A stretch of DNA of 64,000 bases from Acidobacteriota bacterium (GTDB lineage: Bacteria > Acidobacteriota > Terriglobia > Terriglobales > SCQP01). The translations under genes were made by a program, and so were the position numbers. Below are positions 17,854 to 58,819 of the stretch, in pieces; positions within the stretch are counted from its first letter, which is position 1, and every line of letters starts with the position of its first letter. Location of the stretch: NCBI GenBank assembly GCA_021818955.1, contig JAKASR010000023.1:1-64000 (forward strand). The letters run 5' to 3'. A model generated the notes under the pieces. The model saw only the letters and a list, made by a program, of their open reading frames with translations, searched no databases and was not told where the DNA came from.

Positions 17854-20103
17854 ATGTCCACCACCTCCGAACGGCCCTCTTTCAGTCCTGCCGCCGCGTC
17901 CTCCAGCCCACCAGCGCCCAGCCTGGGCGAAGTTGAAGCTATTTTTAAAATGCCTTTGCTGGAATTGATTGAACGGGCGCATGCCCTGCACCGGCAATAT
18001 CATCCCGGGGGCGAAGTCCAACTCTGTCAGCTGCTTTCCATCAAAACCGGAGGCTGCCCGGAAGATTGTGCCTATTGTCCACAAAGCGCTCACTATAAAA
18101 CCGGAGTCAAAGCCGAAGCCTTGCTTGATGCCGGGCAGGTGCTGGCGGAAGCCCGGCAGGCGCGCGACAGCGGGGCGACCCGTTTCTGCATGGGAGCGGC
18201 TTGGCGGCAGGCGCGCGAAGGCGCCGATTTCGAGCGTGTTCTGGAAATGGTGCGCGGGGTGGCGGATCTGGGTCTGGAAGTCTGTTGCACTCTGGGAATG
18301 TTGACCGCTTCGCAAGCGCAGCGGCTGGCCGAGGCCGGCTTGACCGCGTATAACCACAATCTGGATACGTCGCCGGAATTTTACGATCGGATTATTTCCA
18401 CTCGCCAATATGCCGACCGGCTGCAAACCCTCGCCCTGGTTCGCGATGCCGGGATCCAGGTCTGCTGCGGCGGCATTCTGGGTATGGGAGAAAGCGAAGC
18501 GGACCGCATTCGCCTGTTGCATGTGCTGGCCAGCCTGCCGCAACCGCCGGAATCGGTGCCGATCAATGCGCTCGTACCGGTGGAGGGAACGCCTCTGGAA
18601 AAGCAGCATCCGGTTGAGCCGCTGGAAATGGTGCGCATGATTGCCGCCGCCCGCATCCTGATGCCGCAGTCGAAAGTCCGGCTCAGCGCCGGCCGGCTGG
18701 CGCTCTCGGATGAAGCCCAAACCCTCTGTTTTTACGCCGGCGCCAACTCCATCTTTGTGGGCGAAAAATTGCTGACCACTCCCAACCCCGAAACCGATCG
18801 CGATCGGGCCTTGCTCCAACGGCTGGGATTGTCGCCGGAACCGTCCAATTCACGCGCCGAGACCCAGCGCTCCGCCTGGCAAAGCGGGCAGCCTTCCGGA
18901 GCGGCAACCGGCGGCCTTGCGGCTGCGCTTTCGGCCATGCAAACCGAACTGGACCGTCTCGAGCTCGCCGGGCGGCGGCGGAAGCTGACGCTGCCCTACG
19001 GTATCGATTTCTGCTCCAATGATTATCTCGGCCTGGCCGGCGATGAAAGCATTCGCGCCCGCATGCTGCAATGGTTGGAAAGCAGCCAGCGGCTCGGCTC
19101 CGGAGGCTCCCGTCTGGTGCGCGGCCATGCGGAAGAGTTTGAGCGCCTGGAACAGCGCTTTGCCGCATTCTATGGCGCCGAGACCGCCTTGTTTTTTCCC
19201 TCCGGCTATGCCGCCAACACCGGCCTGCTCAGCGCCATTGCCCATCCCGGCGACGTCTTTTTTTCCGATGCGCTCAATCATTCCAGTCTGATTGACGGCA
19301 TGCGCCTTTCCGGCGCCGAACGGCGAATCTATCCGCATCTGAATCTAGCTGCCCTGGAAAAACTGCTCGAACCGCCGAAAAAAGCCGATCAGTACCGTTG
19401 GATCGTGGTGGAATCACTCTACAGCATGGAAGGCGACCGCGCGCCGCTGCAGGAACTGGCCAGGCTGGCTCGGCAATACCAAGCCGCATTGATTGTCGAT
19501 GAAGCCCACGCCAGCGGTATTTTGGGCGAGCGCGGTGAAGGCGCCTGCGCCGCCGCCGGCATTCAGGACGTGCTGCTGGCCAGCGTGCATCCCTGTGGCA
19601 AGGCTTTAGGCGCGGCCGGAGCGTTTGTCTGCGGTCCGCGTATTTTGCGCGATTGGCTGATCAATCGCGCGCGCCCATTCATTTATTCCACCGCGCCGCC
19701 GCTCTGGCTGGCAGCGCAACTGGAGGCAGCGCTGGATCGTTTACAAAACGAGGGCTGGCGGCGCGAGCGCGTGCGCGCGCTGGCGGCGGAACTCCGCGCC
19801 CGGTTGCGCGCCGCCGGCTGCAAATTGGCCGACGAACATTCTCCCGGACGTGATGAGCATTCGCCCATCATCTCCGTCCTCTTTGGCTCCGACCCGGCCG
19901 CAGTTGCGGCCGAAAAAATGCTGGCCGACGCCGGCTTTGATTGCCGAGCCATTCGCCCGCCCAGCGTGCCCGAAGGCTCTGCCCGGCTGCGCATCAGCGT
20001 CCACGCCACCCATACTCGTACCCGTCTGGTCCAGTTGGCGGAAGCTTTCCGCCGCCTGCATTCGCCAGGCGGCGATCCCGGCCCTTTGCCATCTGACCTA
20101 TGA
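17854..20103 (+). CDS. bioBF: Fused biotin synthase and 8-amino-7-oxononanoate synthase (BioB-BioF)
   Basis: A single uninterrupted frame of about 749 residues. Residues about 25-330 are a full BioB: the radical SAM cysteines lie in [13 protein letters not shown] (about C68, C72, C75), with [12 protein letters not shown], the [10 protein letters not shown] segment and [11 protein letters not shown], all close to E. coli BioB. A linker of about 25 residues rich in Ser, Gln and Gly follows. From about 355 onward comes a full BioF, a PLP enzyme with [21 protein letters not shown] and the Schiff-base lysine in [12 protein letters not shown] (about K583). BioF makes KAPA from pimeloyl-thioester and alanine; BioB inserts sulfur into dethiobiotin. 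An in-frame GTG at 17806 preceded by GGAG is an alternative start. The stop overlaps the next ATG by 4 bases. Confidence 0.9.
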
Positions 20104-43446: not shown

Positions 43447-43861
43447 TAGTGTCATATGCTCTAAACTATTCATTTCTCTAGCCTTAACCTCAAAAAAACG
43501 GCATACCCGTGCACACTAATATTTTTTTTGCCGTCCCCGGTAAACTCTAGAATTAAAAAGAGTTATATTGCGGGGACGGCGGGGACGGCAAAAAAACACT
43601 ATTTTTTTCTTTTTTGGTTTTTTTGGCTTTTGCATTCCCGATTGATTCGGTTCATCCCTGCGCTGGATTGCCAAACTGCCGTTTCTAAAGAGTTTTTTCC
43701 TCCCTCCCATAGTTCATTTGATTTAATAACCAATGTTTCTTGGAGTTTGTGTGTCTATTTTTAAGGCCGAAATAGATGTTTCAAAATCTGCAATGTCCAA
43801 GAGCAGCCGGCATCCGGTATGCTCAAACCTTACGGCAGTTTGCTGCTGCAAGTCGTTCCCG
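43447..43861. other. AT-rich intergenic region
   Basis: About 415 bases with long T tracts, strikingly AT-rich for this genome. It contains the inverted repeat described separately at 43523-43596 and then T-runs to about 43625. An open frame from 43733 runs into the PIG-L gene, but its first 43 codons look non-coding. No RNA gene was recognised. Confidence 0.55.
43523..43596. repeat. REP-like long inverted repeat with A/T-run flanks
   Basis: The 17-base arm at 43523-43539 (T7 then GCCGTCCCCG) is exactly complementary to 43580-43596 (CGGGGACGGC then A7). The loop of 40 bases holds a nested AACTCT/AGAGTT stem and one extra copy of GGGGACGGC, so the right arm is a tandem pair. It lies after the permease gene and would work as a terminator in both directions. 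It also resembles the tandem-copy REP units seen near REP-associated transposases, but none is present here. Confidence 0.65.
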
Positions 43862-46717
43862 ATGACCAAAATACGGCGATCTTTAATTTTTGCGTGCCTG
43901 GCCACGGCCGCGCTGGGTCTGGTCTCCGCGCTGGCATTATTTGCGGCGTATACCTCGAGCCAACCTCAACCGGCTCGCGCCGGCAAATCGGCGGCGGCGC
44001 GCTGGCGTCCGCACACCCAACTCCACCGCTTTCACAAGCCCTGGCGTCGCGGCAGCCTGGGGTTGTGGCAAACCCTGAAGCAGCTCAACACCCGCGCCAG
44101 CCTGCTGTTTATCGTCGCCCACCCCGATGACGAAGATGGCGGGCTGCTTTCCTGGCTCTCTCACGGGCTGGGCGCGCGCGTCGACCTGCTGACATTGAAC
44201 CGGGGCGAAGGCGGGCAAAACGTGATGTCGAGCGATCTTTGGGACCGGCTGGGCCTGGTGCGCACCCAGGAACTGCTGGCCGCCGATCGCTACTACGGCG
44301 TGGATCGCCAGTACTGGACGCGGGCCATTGACTTCGGCTTCTCCAAACATCGCCGCGGCTCGCTCCGGCAGTGGGGGCGGCAGCGCGTCCTGAGCGACGT
44401 GATCCGGGTGGTGCGGCTCACGCATCCGCTGGTGATCGCTTCCACCTTTTCCGGCGGCCCCGGCGACGGCCACGGCAATCACCAGGTGGCGGGCGAGATG
44501 GCGCAACTGGCCTACGCACTGGCGGGCGATCCGCGCCAATTTCCGCGCCAGTTGCAATCGGGCTTGGTGCCCTGGCAGCCGCTCAAAGACTATTTCCGCC
44601 AGCCGTTTTTCCCTTCGGCTCGCGGTATCTACGACTACGCGACCGGCCAGACGTTTCCGCCGCGTATCTACAACTACATCACCCGGCAATGGATGCCGCT
44701 CCCGCTGGCCTCGAACGTCGAAGTCCCCGAGGGAATGTGGAATCCGCTGTTGGGCAAAAGCTATTTGCAACTGGCGCGCCAGGGCTGGAGCATGCAGAAG
44801 TCGCAAAACGGCGGCGGCGGCGTGCCCGGGCCAGGGCGTATGCAGGTCGGCTATCACCGCAACGCCAGCCGTGTGCCGGTCGCGGCGAAAGAACTTAGCT
44901 TTTTCGATGGGATTGATACTTCACTTGCCGGCATCGCCGGTCTCGCGCCCGCGGCGGCACGCCCGCAGCTGCGCCTCAGGCTGGAGGCGATCCAGGCGGC
45001 GGTGAATCGCGCGCGCGCGGCTTATAACGTGGCGCAACCCTGGCGGTGCGCTCCGGCGCTGGCCGCGGGCATGCGCCAGACCGAAATGTTGCTCCGTGAT
45101 CTGCCGAATCTGCCGCTGCCGGCGGCGGCGCGCGCCGATGTCGGTTTCGATTTGCGCGTCAAAGCGCGCCAGTTCAATCGCGGGCTGATTCAAGCGCTGG
45201 GACTGCACCTGGGAGCCACGGTGCAGCCTCCACATGCGCCCAGCGGGCCGTTTGCTCGCTTCATGGGCCCGCAACCGGGCATTCGCGTGGCCGTTCCCGG
45301 CGAGCGCTTCGGCGTGGAAGTGCGGCTGAGCGCGCAAGCACCGGCAAACATGGGGCCGGCGCGATTATGGCTCGCAACCGGCCGGACGCGCGGCTGGCGG
45401 ATTACTCCGGCCAGCCGGGCGGGCACTTTGACGCCCGGCCGGGTGGACCGCGGTTCGTTCCAGGCGCAAGCGCCGGCGCGCGACGATTATACGCGCCCTT
45501 ATTTCGCCCGTCCCGGCTTGCAACAGGCTTATTACAACCTGCTCCAGCCCCGCTATCGCAACCGGTCCTTTGCCCCTTATCCGCTGATTGCGCGCGCCGA
45601 AGCGGAATTTGACGGTGTGCGCATTCAAATGGCGAAGGCGGTCGAAAGCGTGCATCGCGAAACCGGCCGCGGGCTGGTGTACACGCCCTTGGCCATCGCG
45701 CCGGCGCTCTCGCTCTGGATCGCGCCCAAGGCCGGCATTGCCCCGCTCGGGCGGCCGAGCTTCACGCTGGCCGTGCGCCTGCACAGCAACGCGCCCCAAA
45801 TCGAAGCCGGGCGGTTGCGGCTGCAATTGCCCTCCGGCTGGCATGCTCAGCCCGCGGCCGCGCCTTTCCGGCTGGCCGAGGGCGACGACGCGCGGCTTGC
45901 GTTCCGCGTTTTTCCTCATGCGCTCGAAACCCGCGTGTATACCCTGCGCGCTGTCGCCACCGCCGCCGGCAAGCGCTATACGCTGGGGTATCGCACCGTC
46001 GGCTATCCCGGCCTGCAGCCGTATTACTATTATCGCGATGCGGAATACCATGTCACCGGCGTGCGGGTGCGGGTCGCTCCCGGCTTGCGCATCGGCTATA
46101 TCGCCGGCACCGGCGATCAGATCCCTCTGGCGATCGCGCAATTGGGTGTGCCGCTCGAAATGATCGGCGATGCCGGCCTGGCGCACGCCAATCTCAGCCG
46201 CTATTCCGCCATCGTGCTCGGCATCCGCGCCTATGCGGCCCGGCCGCTGCTTGCGGCGTACAACTACCGCCTGCTCCGCTACGTGCGCCGCGGCGGCGTG
46301 CTGATCGTGCAATACAACACCGGCGAGTACAACCACGACTTCGGCCCGTATCCCTACCAATTAATTAATAGCCCGCGCTTTACCGTGGTGGATGAGCATG
46401 CGCCGGTGCAGATCTTGCAGCCGGCGAGTCCTTTGCTGAGCTGGCCGAACCGGATCACCGCCGCCGATTTTGCCGGCTGGCTGGAAGAGCGCGGGCACGA
46501 TTTTCTCGCTCGCTGGGATCCGCGCTATCAGGCGCTGCTGGAAACGCACGACCCGGGACAGGCGCCGCAACGCGGCGGCCTGCTTTACGCGCGCTACGGT
46601 AAGGGAGCTTACGTCTATTGCGCCTATGCGCTTTACCGGCAAACGCCGGAGGGCGTGCCCGGCGCTTATCGCTTGCTGGCCAACCTGCTCAGCCTGGCCC
46701 GCAACCCGAAGCGCTGA
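43862..46717 (+). CDS. Very large secreted PIG-L family deacetylase
   Basis: About 951 residues from ATG at 43862, with a signal peptide or anchor (IFACLATAALGLVSALALFAAY). Residues about 80-330 are a PIG-L (LmbE) domain with the zinc motif AHPDDED (H87, D89, D90) and a later GDGHGNHQVAG. A long beta-rich middle region (about 430-760) has no clear motif. The last 180 residues resemble a class I glutamine-amidotransferase or ThuA-like alpha/beta fold (IGYIAGTGDQIPLAIAQLG, YSAIVLGIRAYAA, YVRRGGVLIVQYNTGEYNH). The family removes N-acetyl groups from sugars. Secretion suggests a polysaccharide or glycoconjugate substrate. It is a single gene, convergent with ddl 25 bases away. Confidence 0.75.
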   Translation: MTKIRRSLIFACLATAALGLVSALALFAAYTSSQPQPARAGKSAAARWRPHTQLHRFHKPWRRGSLGLWQTLKQLNTRASLLFIVAHPDDEDGGLLSWLSHGLGARVDLLTLNRGEGGQNVMSSDLWDRLGLVRTQELLAADRYYGVDRQYWTRAIDFGFSKHRRGSLRQWGRQRVLSDVIRVVRLTHPLVIASTFSGGPGDGHGNHQVAGEMAQLAYALAGDPRQFPRQLQSGLVPWQPLKDYFRQPFFPSARGIYDYATGQTFPPRIYNYITRQWMPLPLASNVEVPEGMWNPLLGKSYLQLARQGWSMQKSQNGGGGVPGPGRMQVGYHRNASRVPVAAKELSFFDGIDTSLAGIAGLAPAAARPQLRLRLEAIQAAVNRARAAYNVAQPWRCAPALAAGMRQTEMLLRDLPNLPLPAAARADVGFDLRVKARQFNRGLIQALGLHLGATVQPPHAPSGPFARFMGPQPGIRVAVPGERFGVEVRLSAQAPANMGPARLWLATGRTRGWRITPASRAGTLTPGRVDRGSFQAQAPARDDYTRPYFARPGLQQAYYNLLQPRYRNRSFAPYPLIARAEAEFDGVRIQMAKAVESVHRETGRGLVYTPLAIAPALSLWIAPKAGIAPLGRPSFTLAVRLHSNAPQIEAGRLRLQLPSGWHAQPAAAPFRLAEGDDARLAFRVFPHALETRVYTLRAVATAAGKRYTLGYRTVGYPGLQPYYYYRDAEYHVTGVRVRVAPGLRIGYIAGTGDQIPLAIAQLGVPLEMIGDAGLAHANLSRYSAIVLGIRAYAARPLLAAYNYRLLRYVRRGGVLIVQYNTGEYNHDFGPYPYQLINSPRFTVVDEHAPVQILQPASPLLSWPNRITAADFAGWLEERGHDFLARWDPRYQALLETHDPGQAPQRGGLLYARYGKGAYVYCAYALYRQTPEGVPGAYRLLANLLSLARNPKR

Positions 46718-46741: not shown

Positions 46742-47938
46742 TTATCCAAATAGACGCAGCTCTTGTGTCGGCTCGCGCCGCAGCCGTTTGCGGATGGCGT
46801 TGGCCCGCTCGGCCCGGTCGATGAGCTTCGTCAGCAGCTCCGTGATCAGCCAGTAGCGCGGAGCGGCCGCGAACAGGTAATAGGAGAGCGAACCCGGAAG
46901 CGTGTTGATTTCATTGAAGTAGAGTTGATCCCGGTCCGTGTCGATCAGAAAATCGATTCGCGCGATGCCTTCGCAGCCTAATGCCGAAAATACTCGCACC
47001 GCGTACTCCTGGGCCGTGGCGCGCATCGATGGCGGCAAATCAGTGGGATCGAGTACCCGGACTGCGCTCGCCATGCCTTCGCTCGAGCGAAGGCTTTTTC
47101 GCCCGGCTCGCTTGTATTTATCGCCGAATGAGAGGGGGGATTCTTTTATCGTCACCGGCATTTCGGTTACCGATGCAATCGGTGGATCGACCCCCAGCAC
47201 CGCCACATTCAGCTCCAGGCGGTTCTTGATAAAGGGCTCAATCAAAGCTTCAGTATCGAATTCAAAGACCTTCAGGATTCCCGCCGTCAGGTCGGCGCTT
47301 GCATGGGCCACCGACACCCCCGCGCTGGAACCCAGGTTGCACGGCTTGACGATTACCGGCCAGGGAAAGGCCGCTTCGACCTCGGCGGAAATCCGGCCGG
47401 GCCAGCTCTCATCGCCATCCAGGACTTGCCGCGGAACCGATTGCCACGGTACCACCGGTATGCCCATATGCGCGGCCATGATTTTGCTGAACCGCTTGTT
47501 CATGCCCACCGCGGCCGCTCCGACCCCGCACCCCACATACGCGCAGCCGGCTAATTCTAAAAGGCCCTGAATGCAACCGTCCTCTCCATAGGTTCCATGC
47601 AGGATCGGCAAAAAGACGTCGATGCGCAAGCCGGGCCGGCTTTGCCCCGCTTGATCCCCAAACGTTAAGACCGATTCTCCAAATGTCTGGCTTAGAGACA
47701 CTTCGTTGAGCTGGGCGGTATGCGGGCCCTGGCTGCCGAATGCATCGCGGTGCCAAAGTGCGTCGCCGGTCCACCAGCGCCCGCGCGGATCGATATAAAT
47801 CGGAATCGCCGTGAATTGCTCCGGATCGATCGCGTGCAAAACCTGTAAGCCGCTCACGATCGATACGTCGTGTTCAAGCGAACGGCCGCCGAATAAAACG
47901 GCCACGGTTCTTCGGGGCTGCGCGTTTCCGTTTTGCAT
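46742..47938 (-). CDS. D-alanine-D-alanine ligase family protein
   Basis: 398 residues, an ATP-grasp ligase. It contains FGGRSLEHDVSIVSG, HGTYGEDGCIQGLLE, VGMNKRFSK, VIVKPCNLGSSAGVSVA, GIARIDFLID and FNEINTLPGSLSYY, so the ATP and magnesium sites are complete. The omega-loop region (SFGDKYKRAGR, then a long Ser/Arg-rich stretch) departs from the usual YDYEAKY of housekeeping Ddl, so the second substrate may not be D-alanine. It starts 2 bases after the MurF-like gene and ends the three-gene cassette. It is probably a paralogue of a housekeeping Ddl outside the window. Confidence 0.8.
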   Translation of the reverse strand: MQNGNAQPRRTVAVLFGGRSLEHDVSIVSGLQVLHAIDPEQFTAIPIYIDPRGRWWTGDALWHRDAFGSQGPHTAQLNEVSLSQTFGESVLTFGDQAGQSRPGLRIDVFLPILHGTYGEDGCIQGLLELAGCAYVGCGVGAAAVGMNKRFSKIMAAHMGIPVVPWQSVPRQVLDGDESWPGRISAEVEAAFPWPVIVKPCNLGSSAGVSVAHASADLTAGILKVFEFDTEALIEPFIKNRLELNVAVLGVDPPIASVTEMPVTIKESPLSFGDKYKRAGRKSLRSSEGMASAVRVLDPTDLPPSMRATAQEYAVRVFSALGCEGIARIDFLIDTDRDQLYFNEINTLPGSLSYYLFAAAPRYWLITELLTKLIDRAERANAIRKRLRREPTQELRLFG

Positions 47939-47940
47939 GC

Positions 47941-49578
47941 TTATGCCTTCTGCGCCGCCCCGCGGCGATATCCGTTTTTGAAAAAGAGCCCGCCGGAATT
48001 TTCATAGAGATCCGGCAAATCGTTTTCCAGAATCACCGAATCGCCGGGCCGCAACTGTTCCCGCAGCCAGCGGAATGCCGCCGTTCGATTTTCCACCGGA
48101 ATCAACGCCCCTCTGCGGCTAGAGTCCCGATATCCCGCCTCGAAAGCTGCCCGATTGGTTTCGCTGACGATGAGAGTGTAATCGCAAACCGCCGCCGCTT
48201 CGGCGGCCAGCGCTTGGTTGGCGTCGTATTGTTGAGGCCCCAATTCGATGACCCCCGGCGTTACCAGGATGCGCCTCTCGACTGTCAGGCCGGCGGCAAC
48301 TTCCAGCGCTGCGCGAAACCCGATCGGATTGGAGTTGTACGCATCGCGGATCCAGGTAATGCCGTTGTCTTCGACCACTTCCAGCCGGTTGCTGACCGGA
48401 CGCAATGCCCGTAGCGCGGCCAGCACGATTTCGGGGGTCATCCCCAGAGCGGTGGCGAGCGTGTATGCGCCCAGCATGTTCAGCATGATGGGCCGGCCGA
48501 GCAGGGGAGTAAAGCCGTCGTAGTCCGTTCCGCGGTGCCGGATCTTGAAATGGGTCCCGCGCGCGGAAAAGGTGATGGACAACAACCTCGTGTCCAGTTC
48601 CTCGGCGGAACTTTCACCGTAAAGCAGGACTTTGCATCGAGTTTGGCGGGCGATCCGCAGGGCGCCGGGACTGTCGGCGTTGGCCACCAGAATGCCGTCG
48701 GCAGGCAGCGCTTGCGCCAGTTCGCTCTTGGCCCGGACGATTTCCTCGGTCGAGCCAAAGCGCTCAAGATGCATTGTCCCCACCGCCGTAATAATCGCGG
48801 CGGAGGGCGGGGTCAGTTCGCAGAGGCGGCGGATGGAACCGCGGCGAAAAGCCCCCATTTCCACCACCATGTATTCGTCGCCCTTGGCCAGGTTTTCCCG
48901 GATGTGCCGCGTCACTCCCATCAGCGTATTTACGCTGCCTGCGGCCGCCAGCGTGGGGCCCTTGAATTGCAGAATGTGAGCCACCATCGCTTTGGTGCTG
49001 CTTTTTCCATAGCTCCCGGTTATCCCAATGATGAAAGGGCGCACTTCGGCCACCCGGCGCGCCGCTTCGCTTTTGAAGCGCCGTTGCAAGCGCGTTTCAT
49101 ACGGCATCAGGATCAGGTCGGTCCCGAGCAATAGCAGCGGGAGGATCGGCAGCAAAATGGCCGCGGCTACGAACTGGTTAACGGCTAGCCCCAGCGGAAG
49201 TATCCGCATCAGCGCCCCATAGAACACAATCGTTAACGCAAATGCGGCGATCTGCGTTCGCAGGGCGCGGCTCGTCAGCCGCAGCGGGATCTTGCCCGTC
49301 GTTCGCGGATCCGGTTGCGCGGTTCCCAACCCCAGCCAGGCCAGAATTCCGAGAAGGCTCGCCGTGCGGGGCAGTATGGAACCTAATGCGACGGCTGCGA
49401 TGGCCGCCATCCAGGCGGGATCGGTCAACGATTTCCATCGAAGCCAGTGGAGGAACCTGGCGCGCTCGTAGACTTCTTGCTGGAAGAAGCGCAAATATCC
49501 TAATAGCCGCCGCCAGAATAGGTAAATCTGCGCGGCGGCCGCGAGGATGGCCAAGGCAAGCGTAAAACTATTGGACAT
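47941..49578 (-). CDS. Membrane-anchored Mur ligase related to MurF
   Basis: 545 residues. The N-terminal 180 residues form about four membrane helices (near 4-22, 56-85, 110-130, 135-158) and replace the UDP-MurNAc-binding domain of normal MurF. The rest is a Mur ligase: P-loop GITGSYGKSSTK (about 185-196), VNTLMGVTRHI, VVEMGAFRRGS, GTMHLERFGS, NRLEVVE, DAYNSNPIGF and TPGVIELGP. Without the UDP-sugar domain, the substrate may be lipid-linked or membrane-embedded. The gene starts inside the upstream hydrolase gene (11-base overlap) and is followed 2 bases later by the Ddl-like gene that would supply a dipeptide. The function is inferred from this pairing. Confidence 0.75.
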   Translation of the reverse strand: MSNSFTLALAILAAAAQIYLFWRRLLGYLRFFQQEVYERARFLHWLRWKSLTDPAWMAAIAAVALGSILPRTASLLGILAWLGLGTAQPDPRTTGKIPLRLTSRALRTQIAAFALTIVFYGALMRILPLGLAVNQFVAAAILLPILPLLLLGTDLILMPYETRLQRRFKSEAARRVAEVRPFIIGITGSYGKSSTKAMVAHILQFKGPTLAAAGSVNTLMGVTRHIRENLAKGDEYMVVEMGAFRRGSIRRLCELTPPSAAIITAVGTMHLERFGSTEEIVRAKSELAQALPADGILVANADSPGALRIARQTRCKVLLYGESSAEELDTRLLSITFSARGTHFKIRHRGTDYDGFTPLLGRPIMLNMLGAYTLATALGMTPEIVLAALRALRPVSNRLEVVEDNGITWIRDAYNSNPIGFRAALEVAAGLTVERRILVTPGVIELGPQQYDANQALAAEAAAVCDYTLIVSETNRAAFEAGYRDSSRRGALIPVENRTAAFRWLREQLRPGDSVILENDLPDLYENSGGLFFKNGYRRGAAQKA

Positions 49579-50320
49579 CCGCCTCCAGCCAGCTTCGGAT
49601 CTTTAAAGCGCAGAGGTGCGCGCCGGTCCCTTGAAACGGAAAATGATCTTTATGCGGAAGTATGATCATCTGCGCTTTCCCGCGAATCAAGCGGGCGTAG
49701 GCGCTCGCTATCCCGGCGGGCGCTTCACGGTCATCCGAGCCCCAAAGCAGCAAGCTCGGACATGCAATGGTTTTCGCGGCCTCGGTCAGATTCTCGTTCA
49801 CGGTACGCACCAGCAAGCTGCGTAGCTGGCCCGCATTTAAATAATCTTTCGAGCCAAAGCGCGCGGTATGCCAGTCGAGCGGCGCCGGACCGGTCACCGG
49901 GCGCAATAGTTGCAGCAATTTCCGCAGGTTGCGAATGCCCCATCGCCGCAGGGATCGGCGCGAAAATCGGGCAATTGGAAGCCCCGGAACGCCGATCAGC
50001 ACGATGCCGGCCAGCCGGGAATCCGCCTTCCCGGCCAGGCGGACCGCGATTCGCCCGCCAAAGGAGTGGCCCACGACGACCATGCGTGCGCGCGAAAACT
50101 GCTTCAGGTATTCACTCAGCAATTCGGCATAATCGGCCGTGCTCCAGTCTGGCGGGGGCGGAGGCGCCTCGCCGAATCCTGGAAGGTCGATCAAGTGCCC
50201 CCGGTAGGAGCCTTCGAATAGGCTGGCCAGTTCCCGGAAGCTTTCCCGGTTCTGACCCCATCCATGCAGAAAAAACAGCTCTCCCTGGCGAGGCTGGCCG
50301 AAACTTTCGTCGATCAGCAT
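49568..50320 (-). CDS. Alpha/beta-fold hydrolase
   Basis: About 250 residues. LFFLHGWGQNRESF gives the oxyanion region, GHSFGGRIAVRLA the nucleophile Ser elbow, WGSDDREAP the catalytic Asp and HKDHFPFQG the catalytic His, so the triad is complete. The start is uncertain: GTG at 50374 or ATG at 50320, and I chose the ATG next to AAGGC. It heads a cassette with the membrane MurF-like ligase (11-base overlap) and the Ddl-like gene. A plausible role is release or editing of the ligase product, or esterase/amidase action on it. No specific substrate can be claimed. Confidence 0.75.
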   Translation of the reverse strand: MLIDESFGQPRQGELFFLHGWGQNRESFRELASLFEGSYRGHLIDLPGFGEAPPPPPDWSTADYAELLSEYLKQFSRARMVVVGHSFGGRIAVRLAGKADSRLAGIVLIGVPGLPIARFSRRSLRRWGIRNLRKLLQLLRPVTGPAPLDWHTARFGSKDYLNAGQLRSLLVRTVNENLTEAAKTIACPSLLLWGSDDREAPAGIASAYARLIRGKAQMIILPHKDHFPFQGTGAHLCALKIRSWLEADVQ

Positions 50321-50532
50321 GCCTTGGCGGTGGGTAAAGTTGCTTGAATTAGCGGTCGCGTTCTGCGAAATCACGGCTGATCAGGTGCCCGTGCGTCTAA
50401 ATCTATCACAAAGCGGCTTGCGGACGGCCGCAGATGATCGGGAACGCGCAGCCACATGGGCAATCGACCCTGGCCAGGCTGGCCGGAAGCTATCGCCCCC
50501 GGTTTTGCCCCCAGTCGGCGCTACGATAGAGT

Positions 50533-52188
50533 GTGCAAACTTTTCCGTTACCCGCCGTTCCCGCGCATCCCAAGGGCACCCGAGCCCGTGTGCTGCTGAG
50601 TTCCGTATTCGGTCCATACGCCCATGATGATGAGTTTGGCAGCCGCGCCATCAATCCCATGGAGCTTTACCATAATCAGGTGACGCGCGAACAGGGGGCA
50701 TACTCGCTGCGAATGTTCCATCGCTCCTGGGGCATCATGATGATCCGGGAGAACATCTCCGCTCCCTGTACCCTGCTCGATTTTCCCAGCCGCGAAGTGT
50801 TCGAGCGCGAGCTGGCTGCGGGCGCCTATGACATCGTCGGCATCTCTTCCATTATCGTCAACGTGGGCAAGGTGCGGGAGATGTGCCGTATCGTGCGCCG
50901 CCTCTCGCCCGGGTCCACGATTGTGGTCGGGGGCCATGTGGCCGCCATTCCCGGCCTGGACCGCATGATAGATGCCGATCACATCGTAACCGGCGATGGC
51001 GTCGCCTGGATGCGCCGCTACCTCGGCGAAGACACCGCCGCGCCTATCCGCCACCCCGACATCATTTCCGGTTTCGGGCTTCGCGTCATGGGCATCGGCG
51101 CCCGCGAGCGCACCGGTCGCACCGCCGCTACCATTATTCCTTCCGTCGGCTGCCCGCTCGGTTGTAATTTCTGCACCACCTCCGCGTTCTTCGGTGGCAA
51201 GGGACGATTTCTAAATTTCTATGACAGCGGACGCGATCTGTTCGAAGTCATGGTCCGTATCGAAAAGCGGCTTCAAATTGATTCTTTCTTCATGATGGAT
51301 GAGAACTTCCTTCTCCATCGCCGTCGCGCGCTCGAACTGCTGGAGCTCATTGAGCGCCACCAGAAGAGCTGGAGCCTGTATGTGTTCTCCTCGGCGAACG
51401 CGATTGCCAAATACACCATGGAAGAACTGGTGGCGCTCGGTGTCTCCTGGATATGGATGGGGCTCGAATCCAAGCGCGCCGGCTATGCCAAGCTCAAAGG
51501 CTCCGACACGCGGAAATTAGTGCACGAACTGCAAGGCCATGGCATCCGGGTGCTCGGTTCGACCATTATCGGGCTTGAACACCATACCCGCGAAAACATC
51601 GGCGCCGAAATCGAATACGCCGCCGAACACGATGCCGACTTTCACCAGTTCATGCTGTACACGCCGATTCCCGGCACCGCCCTCTACGCCGAGATGGCCG
51701 CCCAGGGCCGCTTGCTGCCAGAAACCGATTTGGCGGACATTCACGGCCAGTTCAAGTTTAATTTCCGGCATGCCGCTCTTTCGCGCGATGATTCCCGGCG
51801 GTGGCTCGACTTCGCTTTCCGGCGCGACTTCGAGCTCAATGGGCCCAGCCTTTATCGCATCTGCCGCACCACATTCGAGGGCTGGAAGCGTTATCGCCAG
51901 GACGCCGACCGCCGTATCCGCGCTCGCTTTGAACGTGACCTCGCCCAGCTTCGCTGGCTTTACCCCGGAATTCTCTGGGCCATGGAGCGGCGTTTGCGCC
52001 AGACCAATGCCACCGTTCAGAAGCGGGTAGCGGAATTGCGCCGCGAGATGGCGGCCGAATTAGGCCTGCGTGCGCGCCTCGCGCAGTTGGCCGGCCCGCT
52101 GTTCCAGTCGGCCGCGGCGCTGGAAGACCGCCGCCTGGCGCGCGGATGGACCTACGAGCCTCCTGTGATCGTCGAGCACCCCGCCTGA
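50533..52188 (+). CDS. Cobalamin-binding radical SAM protein
   Basis: 551 residues from a GTG start. Residues about 15-175 look like a B12-binding Rossmann domain (YDIVGISSIIVNVGKVREM, IVVGGHVAAIPG). The radical SAM motif is C207-x3-C211-x2-C214 (GCPLGCNFCTTSAFFGG), followed by FFMMDENFLLH and GLESKRAGYAKLKG. The C-terminal third is helical and basic, with a TPIPGTALY segment. Class B enzymes of this type methylate or join unactivated carbons, for example in hopanoid, lipid and antibiotic synthesis. The substrate here is unknown. No pathway genes are next to it except the unrelated MurF-like cassette, which is divergent 212 bases away. Confidence 0.8.
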   Translation: MQTFPLPAVPAHPKGTRARVLLSSVFGPYAHDDEFGSRAINPMELYHNQVTREQGAYSLRMFHRSWGIMMIRENISAPCTLLDFPSREVFERELAAGAYDIVGISSIIVNVGKVREMCRIVRRLSPGSTIVVGGHVAAIPGLDRMIDADHIVTGDGVAWMRRYLGEDTAAPIRHPDIISGFGLRVMGIGARERTGRTAATIIPSVGCPLGCNFCTTSAFFGGKGRFLNFYDSGRDLFEVMVRIEKRLQIDSFFMMDENFLLHRRRALELLELIERHQKSWSLYVFSSANAIAKYTMEELVALGVSWIWMGLESKRAGYAKLKGSDTRKLVHELQGHGIRVLGSTIIGLEHHTRENIGAEIEYAAEHDADFHQFMLYTPIPGTALYAEMAAQGRLLPETDLADIHGQFKFNFRHAALSRDDSRRWLDFAFRRDFELNGPSLYRICRTTFEGWKRYRQDADRRIRARFERDLAQLRWLYPGILWAMERRLRQTNATVQKRVAELRREMAAELGLRARLAQLAGPLFQSAAALEDRRLARGWTYEPPVIVEHPA

Positions 52189-52477: not shown

Positions 52478-53875
52478 TCACGACAGCGGCTGATTCCATT
52501 TTTCCAGCGTCTCGACCACGGAGGCGAGGAACTGGTCGGCGACGGCGCCGTCGATGACACGGTGGTCAAAGCTGAGCGTGAGGTGGACGATGGAGCGGAT
52601 GGCGATGGCGTCATCCACGACCACGGGCGTCTTGTGAATTCCGCCAATGCCCAGAATCGCAACCTGGGGCTGATTGATCACCGGCAGGCCGAACAATCCG
52701 CCAAAAATGCCGGGATTGGTGATGGAAAACGTGCCGTCCTGCACTTCGTCGGGACTGAGCTTTTTACTGCGCGCGCGCGCGGCCAGATCGTTGATGGCGC
52801 GCTGCAGCCCCAGGAAATTTTTCTCTTCGGCATGCTTGATGACCGGCACCAGCAGGCCCCAGTCGAGCGCCACGGCGATGCCCAGATTGATGTCTTTTTT
52901 ATAGACAATCGACTCTTCCTGCACGGAAGAGTTGACGATGGGGAAACGCTTCAGCGCCTCAATCGCGGCGACGGCGAAAAAGGGCATAAACGTCAGACGC
53001 GTGCCATGGCGGTTTTCGAAATCGTTTTTGGCCTCGTCGCGCAACCGCGCGATGCGGCTCATATCAGCCTGAAATACCGAATAAACGTGAGGCGAAGTGC
53101 GCTTGCTCATCACCATGTGTTCGGCGATGCGTTTGCGCATCAGCGACATAGGCACGATCTCGACCGCTCCGGGTCGCGCCGGCGCGGGTGAAGGCGCGGC
53201 GGCCACCGGAGCGCCGGGTACGGCCGGAGTGCCGGGCGCCGTGGGACGAGCCGGCGCGGCGGCCGCCGGCGCCGCGGCAGCGGGTGCGGGCGCGCCCTTG
53301 CGCTGCTCCAGATACTGCATCAAGTCGTGCTTGGAGACGCGGCCTCCTATGCCGGTGCCGCGCACCTGGCTAAGGTCCACCTGGTTTTCTTTCGCCAGTC
53401 GGCGCACCAGCGGCGACGAGCGCACCTCACCCCGCTCGATTTCGGCTTCTTCCTGCTCGGTTTTTTCTTCCACCGCATCGGGTGGCGCCGCCTTGGCGGC
53501 GGCCGGCGAAGGCGGCGTCATGGGCGCAGCCGCGGCTGGAGCGCTGGGCGCGGCCGGGATGGGGGACGCGGCTTCCGCCGCCGCCGGCTTGGCTTGTACG
53601 GCCGGTGCGGACGTTTCTGCCGGCGCGGCGGCTTCGCCTTCCCCATCGAGCAGCGCCACGACCGTATTCACCTGCACCGTCTGCCCTTCGGGAACCTTGA
53701 TTTCCCGCAAGACTCCGCTGGCGGGCGAGGGCACTTCGGCATCCACCTTGTCGGTGGAGATTTCGAACAGGGGCTCGTCGCGGGCAACGCTTTCTCCCGG
53801 CTTCTTCAGCCACTTGGTGACGGTGCCTTCAAAAATAGACTCGCCCATCTGGGGCATGACGACATTGACCGGCAT
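52478..53875 (-). CDS. Dihydrolipoamide acyltransferase (E2) of a 2-oxoacid dehydrogenase
   Basis: 465 residues. One lipoyl domain (1-80) has the lipoylated lysine at about K43 in EISTDKVDAEVPS. An Ala/Pro-rich linker follows to about 150, then the E1/E3-binding domain (PLVRRLAKENQVDLSQVRGTG), a second linker, and the catalytic domain from about 235 with the active-site His/Asp in SFDHRVIDGA. It passes the acyl group from E1 to CoA. It is the last gene of the operon lpd-lipB-E1alpha-E1beta-E2 and should be lipoylated by the LipA/LipB encoded nearby. Substrate class (pyruvate, branched chain or acetoin) is undecided. Confidence 0.9.
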   Translation of the reverse strand: MPVNVVMPQMGESIFEGTVTKWLKKPGESVARDEPLFEISTDKVDAEVPSPASGVLREIKVPEGQTVQVNTVVALLDGEGEAAAPAETSAPAVQAKPAAAEAASPIPAAPSAPAAAAPMTPPSPAAAKAAPPDAVEEKTEQEEAEIERGEVRSSPLVRRLAKENQVDLSQVRGTGIGGRVSKHDLMQYLEQRKGAPAPAAAAPAAAAPARPTAPGTPAVPGAPVAAAPSPAPARPGAVEIVPMSLMRKRIAEHMVMSKRTSPHVYSVFQADMSRIARLRDEAKNDFENRHGTRLTFMPFFAVAAIEALKRFPIVNSSVQEESIVYKKDINLGIAVALDWGLLVPVIKHAEEKNFLGLQRAINDLAARARSKKLSPDEVQDGTFSITNPGIFGGLFGLPVINQPQVAILGIGGIHKTPVVVDDAIAIRSIVHLTLSFDHRVIDGAVADQFLASVVETLEKWNQPLS

Positions 53876-53961
53876 AGGGCCTCGCTAAAACATGGGTAAA
53901 ACCGCTGGAAAGATTTATCGTCCCATGAAAACGCGCTTGAGAGCAATCGGCCGGTGCAGAG

Positions 53962-54933
53962 TTAATAGCGTGCAAGCTGCTTCACCATTTCCGCCAGTCT
54001 CGCGGCGGAGGGCAAAAAGGCCTCCTCCAGCGGCGGCGAAAAGGGCACTGGCGTATCGGCCGCGGTCAATCGCAGTATCGGTCCGTCGAGATCTTCATAG
54101 GCATGCTCTTGCAGCAGTGCCGTAATCTCGCCCGCCAGCCCGCCGGTGCGCGTGTCTTCGTGCAAGATCAAAACCTTGCTGGTGCGGCGCGCGCTGGCCA
54201 GCATGCCTTCCACATCGAGCGGCAGCAGCGTGCGCAGATCGAGCACTTCCAGTTCCAGCCCTTCGCCGGCCAGACGGTCGGCCACTTCCAGCGCCAGCGG
54301 CACCATGGCGCCATAGGTAATCACGCTAAGGTCGCGTCCCGGCCGCGCCACGCGCGCCTTGCCCAGCGGCGCCAGATGCTCGCCTTCCGGCACTTCCTCC
54401 TTGACTCGGCGATAAAGAAATTTGTGCTCGAGAAATATCACTGGATTGTTGTCGCGGATGGCGCTTTTCAGCAGTCCTTTGGCATCCACGGCGGTAGCCG
54501 GCTCGACCACCTTCAGCCCGGGCGTGTGCACGAAATGCATTTCCGGGTTTTGGGAATGAAAGGGACCGCCGTGCACGCCGCCGCCGGCGGGTCCGCGCAG
54601 CACGATCGGCACCGGCGCCTGCCAGCGGTAATGGCTTTTGGCGGCGAAGTTGACGATCTGGTTATAGGCGCAGGCGATGAAATCCATGAACTGGAACTCG
54701 GCCACCGGGCGCATGCCGGTGTAGGCGGCGCCAATGGCGGCGCCGACCAGGGCTGACTCGGCCAGTGGCGTATCCATCACCCGCACCGGGCCAAATTCAT
54801 CAATCAGGCCGGCGGTGGCTTTGAAAGCGCCGCCGTAAACGCCGATATCCTCGCCCAGTAGAAAAACAGCGGGATCCCGCCGCATTTCCTCTTCGAGCGC
54901 CAGGCGAATGGCTTCGACGTAAGTCAATTGCAT
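53962..54933 (-). CDS. 2-oxoacid dehydrogenase E1 beta subunit
   Basis: 323 residues, the usual size. Conserved segments: TYVEAIRLALEEEMRRDPAVFLLGEDIG near the start, DTPLAESALVGAAIGAAYTGMRPVAEFQFMDF and GGGVHGGPFHSQNPEMHF in the middle. The C-terminal transketolase fold (LEVLDLRTLLPLDVEGMLASARRTSKVLILHED) is complete. With E1alpha it decarboxylates a 2-oxoacid using thiamine diphosphate and loads the acyl group onto lipoyl-E2. It sits 33 bases after E1alpha and 86 bases before E2 in the same operon. The sequence is of the pyruvate/branched-chain heterotetramer type. Confidence 0.92.
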   Translation of the reverse strand: MQLTYVEAIRLALEEEMRRDPAVFLLGEDIGVYGGAFKATAGLIDEFGPVRVMDTPLAESALVGAAIGAAYTGMRPVAEFQFMDFIACAYNQIVNFAAKSHYRWQAPVPIVLRGPAGGGVHGGPFHSQNPEMHFVHTPGLKVVEPATAVDAKGLLKSAIRDNNPVIFLEHKFLYRRVKEEVPEGEHLAPLGKARVARPGRDLSVITYGAMVPLALEVADRLAGEGLELEVLDLRTLLPLDVEGMLASARRTSKVLILHEDTRTGGLAGEITALLQEHAYEDLDGPILRLTAADTPVPFSPPLEEAFLPSAARLAEMVKQLARY

Positions 54934-54966
54934 AACCGCTCCTGCGGGAAAAATCCAGCCGCCAGC

Positions 54967-56382
54967 TCAGGGCCGCCGGCGCCCACGGCCGAGAAAACGC
55001 GGCCGCGGGTCATGGCACCCGTCGCAATAGACGCCTTCGAAGGCGCGCTCGGGTGGAGGCATCGGGCTGGCCTCGGCGGCATCGCGCTCGGCCAGTATTT
55101 CCGACTCTACCGCCCGCCGCATCTCTTCGATCGCGGCCTCATCCAGCCAACTTTTCCGCTTTAACCAGATTTCCAGCCGCGCGATCGGGTCGCGCAGCCG
55201 CCAGAATTCCAGCATCGCCGCCGGCACATAGGCGGCCGGATCATGAATGGCGTGGCCTTTCATGCGCATCAGCTTGGCTTCGATCAGCGTCGGCCCGCCG
55301 CCGGCGTGCGCTCGCTCGATTGCCTGATGCGCCGCTTGATAGACCTGGAACGGATCGGTGCCATCCACGATCATGGCGGGAATGCCATAAGCGCGGGCGC
55401 GGATGGCCAAATCGCGAATCCGGGTCTGCTTTTGCAGCGGGGTCGAGTAAGCCCAGAGATTGTTTTCCACGATCAGCACCAGGCCGAGATTCTGCACCGC
55501 CGCCAGGTTGAGGCCCTCGTGAAAGACGCCGGTGCTCTGTCCGCCATCGCCGATCCAGGTCATGGCGGCGATTTCGCGGCCCTGCAGGCGCTCGCCCAGG
55601 CATACGCCGGCCATGACGGGAATCAGGTCGCCCAGCATGGAAATGGGCGCGACCACGTGGCGCGATTCCAAGTCGCCGAAATGCGAGGTCCCGTCTTTGC
55701 CGCCGGTGGGCGAATCGGCGCGGGCCATATACTGCATCATGATGTCGCGTGCAGGGAACCCGCGCACCAGCAGGCTGCCCTGATTACGGATCATCGGCGC
55801 CATCCAATCATTTGGGCCGAGCGCGTATGCGGAGGCCACCGAGCAGCCTTCCTGCCCCAGCCCGAAATAGACGCCGCCAACCACGCGGCTTTGCTTATAG
55901 AGGTTTTCCAACTGCTGTTCGAGGGCGCGATTGAGCAGCATCCAGCGAAAAATCTCGATGCACTGCTCGCGGCTGAGGCCGCGCGGCTCAACCAGCGGCG
56001 GCGGCGGCGTGATCGCCCCCGTCCAGCGGTAAGCCAGCTTGCCTTCATCCCAGATTTCTTCCAGCTCGAAGCGCAGCCGTTCCTGCCGCAGATCCTGGAA
56101 CCATTCCGTCACGCGCGGGGTGGATCGGGCGCCGGGACGCGCGGGATTCGGCTCCGTGGCGCCGCCCCCCGGACCGCGGCGGCGAGGCCGGTGGTCCGGC
56201 CGCTCGCGCCGGGGGCCGCGTTGTGGGCGAGCGCCGCCGGCCGGACGCGATGCCGCGGGCACGGGCTGAGCCGGCGATTCGCTTGAGGCCGGCCCCCCAT
56301 TGGCTTTTTCGGCCACGGATTTTTCCGCCGCTTCCGCTGCCGGTTTAGCGGGCGTGGTATTGGGAGCGTCGTTATCGGCCAT
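54967..56382 (-). CDS. 2-oxoacid dehydrogenase E1 alpha subunit with a long disordered N-terminus
   Basis: About 471 residues. The catalytic part starts near residue 105 and has the thiamine diphosphate motif WIGDGGQSTGVFHEGLNLAAV to VENN, with GGKDGTSHFGD in the substrate loop. The first 95 residues are low-complexity, rich in Ala, Pro, Arg and Gly (PRRERPDHRPRRRGPGGG), unlike normal E1alpha. The C-terminus has an odd CDGCHDPRPRF segment. ATG at 56382 is preceded by GAGG; the longer frame would overlap lipB. It lies 19 bases after lipB and 33 before E1beta. The extension may hold the complex together or bind nucleic acid or polyanion, but that is speculation. Confidence 0.88.
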   Translation of the reverse strand: MADNDAPNTTPAKPAAEAAEKSVAEKANGGPASSESPAQPVPAASRPAGGARPQRGPRRERPDHRPRRRGPGGGATEPNPARPGARSTPRVTEWFQDLRQERLRFELEEIWDEGKLAYRWTGAITPPPPLVEPRGLSREQCIEIFRWMLLNRALEQQLENLYKQSRVVGGVYFGLGQEGCSVASAYALGPNDWMAPMIRNQGSLLVRGFPARDIMMQYMARADSPTGGKDGTSHFGDLESRHVVAPISMLGDLIPVMAGVCLGERLQGREIAAMTWIGDGGQSTGVFHEGLNLAAVQNLGLVLIVENNLWAYSTPLQKQTRIRDLAIRARAYGIPAMIVDGTDPFQVYQAAHQAIERAHAGGGPTLIEAKLMRMKGHAIHDPAAYVPAAMLEFWRLRDPIARLEIWLKRKSWLDEAAIEEMRRAVESEILAERDAAEASPMPPPERAFEGVYCDGCHDPRPRFLGRGRRRP

Positions 56383-56401
56383 GCCTATCGCCTCGCTAAC
56401 A

Positions 56402-57199
56402 TTATCCGCGTTCCGCGATGGGATGAAAATCCGGTGGCGCCGCCGGGGCCAACGGCGCCGGTTCCGGCAACCGCGTAGCCGCGCGCCATTCCGTCGCCGC
56501 CACCCAAACCAGCTCGCGCCGGAATACGCGGCTGAAGTGGCGCGCGGCCAGCGGCAGCAGATCGCGAATTTCGAGCGGGCGCCGCAATTCGCGCTGCAAC
56601 GAGCTGACCTCGCGGTCGCGTATACCGCAGGGCAAGATCGCGCTAAAGCCCGCCAGGTCGGGCGCGACATTGAGGGCGAAGCCGTGGGTGGTGACGCCGC
56701 GCGAGATATGCACGCCGATGGCGGCCAGCTTGCGTTCCGGCGGCTCCGCCGTCCAGACCCCGGTCAGCCCCGCGATCCGCCGTGTTTCCAGGCCCAATTC
56801 GCCTATCATGCCCATCAAAACTTCTTCCAGCGCGCGCACATACTCGACCGCGCCCAGCCCCGGGCGCGTGCGTGCCGTGCCGGAGACAGGCGGCGGCAGC
56901 TCGCGCAAGTCGAAGATGGGATAGCCGACCAGTTGACCCGGTCCGTGCCAGGTTATGTCGCCGCCGCGGTTGCATTCGGCCAGCTCCACCCCGCGCGCCG
57001 CCAGCCGTTCTGGCGATTCCAGCAGGTGTTCGCGGCGGGCATTGCGCCCCAGTGTGATCACCGGATCGTGCTCGAGCAGCAAAAGCTGGTCGCCGCAAAG
57101 CCGGCGCTGGCGCCGGCTTTCCGCCGCGGCCTGCAGCCGCAGCCCCTCGGCATAGCCGATGCGGCCTAAACCCACGGCTTCAATGACTGGCTCGGGCAT
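56402..57199 (-). CDS. lipB: Octanoyl-ACP transferase (lipoate biosynthesis)
   Basis: 265 residues. LipB moves octanoate from ACP to the lipoyl lysine of E2. The signature is RGGDITWHGPGQLVGYPI (residues 78-95). The catalytic lysine is about K157 in ERKLAAIGVHI and the catalytic cysteine about C191 in ILPCGIRDREVSSL. The last 45 residues form an extra Pro/Ala-rich tail beyond the usual end. It sits between lpd (32 bases) and E1alpha (19 bases), so the lipoylation enzyme is made together with its target complex. LipA, the next enzyme, is encoded about 3 kb upstream on the other strand. Confidence 0.92.
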   Translation of the reverse strand: MPEPVIEAVGLGRIGYAEGLRLQAAAESRRQRRLCGDQLLLLEHDPVITLGRNARREHLLESPERLAARGVELAECNRGGDITWHGPGQLVGYPIFDLRELPPPVSGTARTRPGLGAVEYVRALEEVLMGMIGELGLETRRIAGLTGVWTAEPPERKLAAIGVHISRGVTTHGFALNVAPDLAGFSAILPCGIRDREVSSLQRELRRPLEIRDLLPLAARHFSRVFRRELVWVAATEWRAATRLPEPAPLAPAAPPDFHPIAERG

Positions 57200-57231
57200 G
57201 ATGGCTGCTGCGCGAACACGGCGCCGGGCAT

Positions 57232-58635
57232 TTACATATTGATCGTCAGGCCATAAACCGAGTTCGCGGCATCCAACATCGCCTCATACAAGGTGGGATG
57301 CGCATGGATGGTCTGCATTATTTCGTCCGCGGAAACCTGCAGCTGCATACCCAGCGTGGCCTCGGAAATCAATTCCGTCACCAGCGGGCCGATCATATGC
57401 ACGCCCAGCACGGTGCCGTCTTTTTCATCCGCCAGCAGCTTGATAAAGCCCTCATGCTGGCCCAGGATGGTGGCCTTGGAGTTGCCGGCGAAGCTGAACT
57501 TCCCGACTTTGTATCGTAACCCGCGGTCGCGCGCGGCTTTTTCGGTCAGGCCCACGCTGGCCACCTGCGGCTCGCAATAAGTGCAATTGGGGCAATTGCG
57601 GTAATCGAGCGGTTGCGCCGGACGCCCGGCCAGATGCGCCACCGCCACCATGCCTTCCATCGAAGCGGCATGGGCGAGCTGGGGCGCGCCGGCAACTACA
57701 TCGCCGATGGCGTAAACTCCCGGCTCGGCCGTGCGCATGTAGGCATCGGTGCGGATGAAGCCGCGATCGAGCTGCACCTTGCTGGCTTCGAGGTTCAACC
57801 CCTCCGTGACCGGGCGGCGTCCGACGGCAACCAGCACGTATTCCGCTTCCAGGCTTTGCGCCTTGCCCTCGGCCGTGAAGTCGATTTTGACTTTGTCCGG
57901 CGCGGGCTCGACCTTATCCACCCGTGCGCCGGTGTGGATGGCGACTTTTTGCTTTTTCAGCGCCTTTTCGATCTCCCGCGAGATTTCCTCGTCTTCGATC
58001 GGCAGGATGCGCGGAAGCATTTCCAGCAGCGTGACCTGGGTGCCGAAGCGGGTGTACATCGAGGCAAACTCCACCCCCACGGCGCCGGCGCCGATGATAG
58101 CCAGCGATTTGGGCACTTGCGCGAGCGCCAATATCTCGATGTTGGTGAGCACGCGCCCGCCGGCCTTCAATCCGGGCAGCAGCCGCGCTTCCGAGCCGGT
58201 GGCGAAAATGATGTTTTTCGCTTCGAGCGTGAACGCTGCGCCTTGAGGAGGCGTAACCTCCAGCCGGCCGGGTCCGGACCAGCGGGCGCGGCCCTTGATC
58301 CATTCCACCTTGTTCTTGCGGAATAGGTACTCGATGCCTTTGGAATGCTTGCCGACGATTTTGTCTTTGCGCGCCTGCGCCTGCGGCCAATCGAGGCTGA
58401 ACTCGCCTGCCTTGATGCCGAACTCCTGGGCGCGGCGGAAGGTATCGAGCACCTCGGCATTGTGCAGCAGCGCTTTCGTGGGAATGCAGCCAACCAGCAG
58501 GCAGGTGCCGCCTAAACGCGGGTCTTTTTCCACCACGGCCACGGAAAGCCCGTATTCCGCCCCGCGAATCGCCGACCAGTAGCCGCCCGGCCCGCTGCCC
58601 ACCACCACCAGATCGAATTTGTTTTTGTCCGCCAT
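57232..58635 (-). CDS. lpdA: Dihydrolipoyl dehydrogenase (E3)
   Basis: About 467 residues. FAD-binding GSGPGGYWSAIRGAEYG is at the start, and the redox disulfide is in GGTCLLVGCIPTKALL (about C45 and C50). The NAD motif is IGAGAVGVEFASMY, the second FAD motif YAIGDVVAG, and the catalytic His/Glu is HAHPTLYEA near the C-terminus (usually HPTLSE). It reoxidises dihydrolipoyl-E2 with NAD+. ATG at 58635 is chosen; a GTG 12 bases upstream is also possible. It is the first gene of the complex operon. An extra CxxC (NCPNCTYC) near residue 350 is unusual. Confidence 0.92.
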   Translation of the reverse strand: MADKNKFDLVVVGSGPGGYWSAIRGAEYGLSVAVVEKDPRLGGTCLLVGCIPTKALLHNAEVLDTFRRAQEFGIKAGEFSLDWPQAQARKDKIVGKHSKGIEYLFRKNKVEWIKGRARWSGPGRLEVTPPQGAAFTLEAKNIIFATGSEARLLPGLKAGGRVLTNIEILALAQVPKSLAIIGAGAVGVEFASMYTRFGTQVTLLEMLPRILPIEDEEISREIEKALKKQKVAIHTGARVDKVEPAPDKVKIDFTAEGKAQSLEAEYVLVAVGRRPVTEGLNLEASKVQLDRGFIRTDAYMRTAEPGVYAIGDVVAGAPQLAHAASMEGMVAVAHLAGRPAQPLDYRNCPNCTYCEPQVASVGLTEKAARDRGLRYKVGKFSFAGNSKATILGQHEGFIKLLADEKDGTVLGVHMIGPLVTELISEATLGMQLQVSADEIMQTIHAHPTLYEAMLDAANSVYGLTINM

Positions 58636-58819
58636 AGATTTGCTCACGGCCGGCGTACGCGCGTAGTGATTTCAGCCAAAAATTGGCGCCGGCGCGGGGA
58701 AACAATAATGTTAGCAATTTCCGCAAGCGCCGGCTCGAATGTTCCTTAACTTGATGCTACGGCTAGCCGGGATCTCGCCTGCTCGTTTTTGGGGTCGGGG
58801 GACTGGAATTTCGGGGGTG

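Follow-up and report, generated by a model that had tools for sequence, protein, structure and literature searches.

We analyzed a 64-kb window of contig JAKASR010000023.1 from assembly GCA_021818955.1 of an Acidobacteriota bacterium (genome G000); "the window" refers to this whole stretch. Its list of open reading frames (ORFs) holds a cassette of three genes, all on the minus strand, encoding an alpha/beta hydrolase, a membrane MurF-like ligase (TM-MurF) and a Ddl-like ATP-grasp ligase:

49568-50374, minus strand: alpha/beta hydrolase of a cassette-specific family, with a GTG start at 50374 (268 residues) or an ATG at 50320 (250 residues)
47941-49578, minus strand: TM-MurF, 545 residues, assigned by TIGR01143 (211 bits), AlphaFold2 and Foldseek
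46742-47938, minus strand: Ddl-like ATP-grasp ligase, 398 residues, assigned by Pfam and NCBIfam; the single PF07478 match of Ddl strength in the genome

The hydrolase and TM-MurF genes overlap by 11 bases (49568-49578), 2 bases (47939-47940) separate TM-MurF from the Ddl gene, and a strong Shine-Dalgarno-like GGAGG lies ahead of the TM-MurF start. When 84,980 species genomes were scanned, at least 564 relatives of TM-MurF came up. Among the best 80 of these, the hydrolase lies upstream of TM-MurF in 66 of the 73 loci whose flanks allowed the test, Ddl follows it immediately in 54 of 73, and the complete set occurs in this order in 48 of 67 testable loci, across many phyla, so the arrangement is not due to chance. 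The initial annotation had described an overlapping or abutting set forming one cassette and had raised the question of how often Ddl and a hydrolase adjoin such ligases; the re-measured junctions and these counts agree with that description.

MurF, which ligates D-Ala-D-Ala to UDP-MurNAc-tripeptide, and Ddl, the D-Ala:D-Ala ligase, normally complete the cell wall precursor; both are treated as near-universal soluble enzymes and are drug targets. In this genome (3.8 Mb in a 47-contig draft, 96.3% complete), profile searches found Mur ligase domains in MurC, MurD, MurE, FolC and TM-MurF and no classical MurF, leaving TM-MurF as the only candidate. No second Ddl was found in the genome either, the other ATP-grasp matches being of carboxylase and carbamoyl-phosphate-synthase type, while MurC, MurD, MurE, MraY and MurG are all present. 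In a genome of the same genus (G003), classical murF directly follows murE, and classical ddl lies between a group of ORFs and a glycosyltransferase-like gene. Both sites are assembled in G000 with the genes gone and conserved flanks 52-76% identical to G003: murE (75%) is followed by the next G003 gene (52%) and then by the following one (55%), and the ddl site keeps the synthetase (72%), two ORFs (58% and 71%), the glycosyltransferase-like gene (55%) and the next gene (73%). The cassette itself occupies a position held by other genes in G003, between flanks in genus order (AmtB, 85% identity; GAF, 84%; permease, 78%; PIG-L, 73%; radical SAM, 90%; E2, 82%). Because these flanks are native and in the same order (73-90% identity), the cassette is not a binning error, and contamination of the contig was ruled out. 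The loss of the classical genes from assembled loci, together with a cassette between native flanks, indicates that this lineage lost both genes and carries the cassette instead, and this replacement is strongly supported. The initial annotation had instead seen a route parallel to cell wall synthesis; comparison with the housekeeping murF and ddl of the same genome found none besides the cassette genes, an outcome that the annotation itself had named as refuting its proposal. The parallel route is not supported, and the cassette most likely is the housekeeping route.

TM-MurF matches Mur_ligase_M (121.7 bits) and Mur_ligase_C (51.4 bits against a cut-off of 28.4) in Pfam. Its best family is MurF (TIGR01143), at a score below the curated cut-off of 288.6, and the match spans only profile positions 65-399, leaving the MurF N-terminal domain uncovered. 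We distinguished the following parts:

49036-49578, minus strand: helical membrane domain, residues 1-181, where MurF has its uridine diphosphate N-acetylmuramic acid (UDP-MurNAc)-binding domain (AlphaFold2 and hydropathy)
49444-49509, minus strand: motif R..L....(F/L)QQ..Y...R(F/Y)..W, residues 24-45, on the predicted cytosolic membrane face; Q33, Y37 and W45 conserved in at least 90% of 63 sequences
49258-49293, minus strand: basic motif K.PL..T.RA.R, lying between membrane helices (residues 96-107); in 63 sequences T102 is invariant and K96, R104 and R107 reach at least 90% conservation
48001-49035, minus strand: Mur ligase ATPase and C-terminal domains with P-loop GSYGKSSTK, EMG, H270, K284, DAYNSNP and TPGVIELG (Pfam and comparison with classical MurFs)
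48010-48027, minus strand: ENDLPD in place of the classical MurF K(G/A)S (motif comparison); N519 and L521 invariant in 63 sequences

The AlphaFold2 model, built on an alignment of 63 sequences (mean predicted local distance difference test score, pLDDT, 92; predicted template modelling score 0.90), places residues 2-179 in helices only (2-34, 39-48, 54-68, 70-87, 103-126 and 131-179), the last of which continues into the ligase part, and hydropathy has four peaks (4-22, 60-78, 115-133 and 140-158). A soluble UDP-binding fold at the N-terminus was ruled out by the all-helical model, and the swap of the UDP-MurNAc-binding domain for about four membrane helices, as first annotated, is thus supported. 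Foldseek placed MurF 4qf5 as the top PDB match (E-value 9e-26), and the best PDB matches were MurF structures aligned over about 363 columns, corresponding to the two catalytic domains. Classical MurF has the same ATPase and C-terminal domains, and the window protein retains the P-loop, EMG, the catalytic His (H270), the Lys (K284, probably carbamoylated) and D(A/S)YNSNP, equivalent to DD.YN.NP; in one acidobacterial TM-MurF pair (L104 7858-9456, minus strand; L105 3-1499, plus strand) the K284 position is Asn. Classical MurF differs in its UDP-MurNAc-binding domain, LGDM/GEM and K(G/A)S, where TM-MurF has the helical membrane domain, TPGM (TPGV in the window protein) and ENDLPD. TM-MurF and its Ddl partner are recognizable as MurF and Ddl by their catalytic cores, but TM-MurF lacks a defining feature of MurF.

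In lineages ranging from Bacteroidales to Cyanobacteria, seven positions of the membrane domain (Q33, Y37, W45, K96, T102, R104 and R107) either do not vary or are conserved to at least 90%. The relatives were fetched with patterns from the catalytic part (LENDLPDL and GITGSYGK), so the conservation of the membrane domain is not a selection artefact, whereas that of the two patterns partly is. As judged from the alignment, these near-invariant polar and basic residues exceed the needs of an anchor, and the domain is more than mere grease.

The cassette Ddl contains both the Dala_Dala_lig_N and Dala_Dala_lig_C domains, scores 275.9 against NF002528 (cut-off 262) and 241.1 against TIGR01205 (just under the cut-off of 245.65), and is about 38% identical to the classical Ddl of the same genus. 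Two of its loops differ from the classical type when 64 cassette Ddls are aligned with 8 classical ones:

47045-47128, minus strand: lengthened omega loop FGDKYKRAGRKSLRSSEGM...RVLDP, Ddl residues 271-298
46868-46915, minus strand: substrate loop of the cassette type, NEINTLPGSLSYYLFA (residues 342-357), which lacks 4 residues relative to the classical NEINTMPGFTPISMFPKLW

The canonical second-substrate loop PGFT..S is absent from the window protein, which has the shorter PGSLSYYLF instead. An altered substrate loop had been noted at first annotation, and it proved common to all 64 cassette Ddls compared, as an NE.N..PGS(L/F/I/M/C)..(F/Y)LW-type loop with a four-residue deletion relative to the NEINTMPGFTPISM(Y/F)PKLW of the classical enzymes. 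The omega loop of cassette Ddls is longer and often rich in Gly and Lys, and its KY and the Arg of ARIDF are retained. Our first reading of the substrate loop, that the Ser binding the second D-Ala had been lost, was dropped, since the alignment permits Ser-Leu to be kept after the deletion. Ddl and VanA-type ligases thus share both domains and the main catalytic residues with the cassette enzyme, which differs in the deletion giving PGS(L/F)..YLW and in the long omega loop. The cassette does not resemble a vancomycin-resistance (van) cluster, in which a D-Lac or D-Ser ligase is accompanied by VanH or VanT and by VanX or VanXY: van ligase models scored far under cut-off, and none of these partners was present among the neighbours scanned. 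Seven Ddls located elsewhere in TM-MurF genomes are also of the cassette type, so TM-MurF and this kind of Ddl go together even where they are unlinked. One alphaproteobacterial metagenome-assembled genome (G425) encodes Ddls of both types, cassette and classical (L220 130-1347 and L219 157-1248, both minus strand), and no classical MurF.

Within 399 genomes of the class, TM-MurF occurs in only four (G000, G194, G305 and G366), and classical MurF was found in none of these four, whereas 13 of 13 family relatives have classical MurF and lack TM-MurF. A census of 50 TM-MurF genomes gave 10 with a stand-alone classical MurF, 7 with a MurF-Alr-type fusion and 33 with neither, 28 of which have exactly one strong Ddl. 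The 33 include the isolates Blastochloris sulfoviridis DSM 729, Chamaesiphon polymorphus CCALA 037 and Pseudalkalibacillus decolorationis DSM 14890, the extra Mur ligase match of the last being MurE. Several MurF motifs (DD.YN.NP, EMG and KGS) are lost in the fusions L209 751-3192, L227 412-2976 and L228 1-2184, as though the MurF half, once replaced, were falling into decay. Fusions of this kind (PRK11930 type) resemble TM-MurF in being non-standard MurF arrangements that occur in some cassette genomes, and differ in that they retain the N-terminal MurF domain and carry a fused alanine racemase. In the tree, all 31 TM-MurF rows group in a single clade (support 100/99) separate from classical MurF; two rows labelled as classical MurF, L019 and L021, are MurE neighbours. 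The window protein clusters with proteins of Chlamydiae, Melainabacteria, Chamaesiphon and Chitinophagales, and the other acidobacterial ones fall at two other places, so about three separate acquisitions took place. Plasmid or phage cargo was also considered and rejected: no plasmid record had an 80% match, and the matches were only classical-MurF-like. One unannotated faecal "phage" contig is 39% identical over the catalytic part of TM-MurF.

The hydrolase matches Abhydrolase_1/6 in Pfam and has a predicted catalytic triad S104-D215-H244. HGW, GHSxG, S175xD177, D215 and H244 are invariant in the family (72-member comparison; 47-row alignment), which also has its own motif S.DY ... NED. The AlphaFold2 model (pLDDT 94.5) resembles many generic esterases and lipases, with a membrane phospholipase A as first match, and its fold is not decisive for function. 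The protein could be a dedicated accessory serine hydrolase, perhaps clearing wrong or surplus products; the initial annotation had suggested that it could trim or release the product.

Taken together, we consider it fairly probable that the cassette is a horizontally spread stand-in for soluble MurF and Ddl, one that joins a membrane-linked tripeptide precursor to D-Ala-D-Ala or a close analogue of it. While the replacement is read from the genomes, we infer the reaction, the lipid-linked acceptor, the exact dipeptide and the role of the hydrolase. From what is known of these families, with no other MurF or Ddl at hand the cassette would have to supply the last stem-peptide step. The Ddl-like enzyme would make D-Ala-D-Ala or a close analogue, and TM-MurF, anchored in the inner membrane and exposing its catalytic domains to the cytosol, would ligate this dipeptide onto the MurNAc-tripeptide stem. 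A conserved membrane domain has taken the place of the domain with which MurF holds UDP-MurNAc, and this makes an acceptor that is already linked to the membrane (lipid I or lipid II bearing the tripeptide) the most likely one. The last stem-peptide step would then come after MraY and not before. MurT, the ligase of the MurT/GatD pair that amidates lipid II, likewise has a Mur ligase core without the UDP-binding domain and acts on lipid II; the authors of its structure considered such an N-domain unnecessary and likely to clash with the membrane (PMC6113224). By this analogy, TM-MurF probably uses a lipid-linked tripeptide, and the membrane-linked acceptor of the initial annotation is a reasonable one. 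MurT is distinguished from TM-MurF by a short flexible N-terminus, a zinc ribbon and its GatD partner; MurT models gave 20.5-25.2 bits with the window protein (cut-off 800), and the cassette neighbours are a hydrolase and Ddl, with no GatD.

Several points weigh against this interpretation. The acceptor and the dipeptide are inferred, the role of the hydrolase is not explained by replacement, and stand-alone classical MurF persists in 10 of the 50 census genomes, so the cassette can also be an addition. Most TM-MurF genomes without MurF are metagenome-assembled, which makes single absences weak evidence, although not the overall pattern. In addition, both substrate-facing loops, the PGS loop of Ddl and ENDLPD of TM-MurF, differ from the classical ones, and the dipeptide may therefore not be D-Ala-D-Ala.

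The main rival accepts the replacement and takes soluble UDP-MurNAc-tripeptide as the acceptor, with the membrane domain merely tethering the ligase beside MraY for channelling. We regard this as possible but doubtful: the MurF motifs are retained in the catalytic core, and a normal MurE should provide UDP-MurNAc-tripeptide, but the UDP-binding domain is gone with nothing similar in the AlphaFold2 model, and the near-invariant polar and basic residues of the membrane domain, found across phyla, go beyond what an anchor needs. It is also conceivable, if rather unlikely, that the cassette replaces MurF and Ddl and yields a precursor ending in a residue different from D-Ala-D-Ala, which could alter glycopeptide binding or crosslinking. 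The loop changes common to cassette Ddls and the coordinated changes in TM-MurF (K(G/A)S to ENDLPD and LGDM/GEM to TPGM) fit this idea, whereas the retained KY and ARIDF Arg, a loop that aligns with Ser-Leu kept, and the lack in the cassette of any gene that would supply a special hydroxy or amino acid speak against it. That the cassette is a peptide-modification route alongside normal cell wall synthesis seems improbable; it would suit the genomes in which a stand-alone classical MurF accompanies the cassette, sometimes together with a second, classical-scoring Ddl, but no other MurF is present in G000, in any of the four acidobacterial carriers or in 33 of the 50 census genomes, and G000 has lost both classical genes from conserved loci. 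An assembly artefact, with murF and ddl hidden in the missing few percent of a 47-contig draft, is very improbable given that both are missing at assembled loci with intact neighbours and that unrelated carriers, isolates included, share the absence.

Other genes of the window were also noted. A run of genes for 2-oxoacid dehydrogenase E2, E1-beta, E1-alpha, a LipB-like protein and E3 (lipoamide dehydrogenase) adjoins the cassette (52478-58647, minus strand; translations read by eye only). Nearer to it lie a B12-binding radical SAM protein (50533-52188, plus strand), weakly HpnJ-like at scores far under the curated cut-offs and native as judged by its identity within the genus, and a secreted-looking protein of 994 residues (43733-46717, plus strand) that carries a PIG-L deacetylase domain and whose long C-terminal part matches no family strongly. 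Farther away are a 765-residue ORF (17806-20103, plus strand), apparently a fusion of biotin synthase (Radical_SAM and BATS) and a BioF-like class I/II aminotransferase, and a UvrD-type helicase beside a PD-(D/E)XK nuclease protein, AddAB-like (224-6386, minus strand).

No description of a membrane MurF or of such a cassette was found in the literature searched, most subscription literature being outside its reach, and the parts consulted of a 2025 survey of the Mur family, which covers MurT, CapB and CphA, do not mention the TM-MurF type (PMC11915815).

In conclusion, the cassette suggests that another enzyme may carry out the final stem-peptide step, probably with another substrate. We would give an even chance to the broader proposal that in many lineages an integral-membrane MurF, acting after MraY, adds D-Ala-D-Ala or a variant dipeptide once the precursor has reached lipid I/II, a reordered pathway arising from repeated horizontal displacement of MurF and Ddl. 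If true, "murF-negative" genomes would become interpretable, and the bacteria that carry it would be predicted to differ in their precursor pools and in how they respond to glycopeptides and to inhibitors of MurF, Ddl and MraY.

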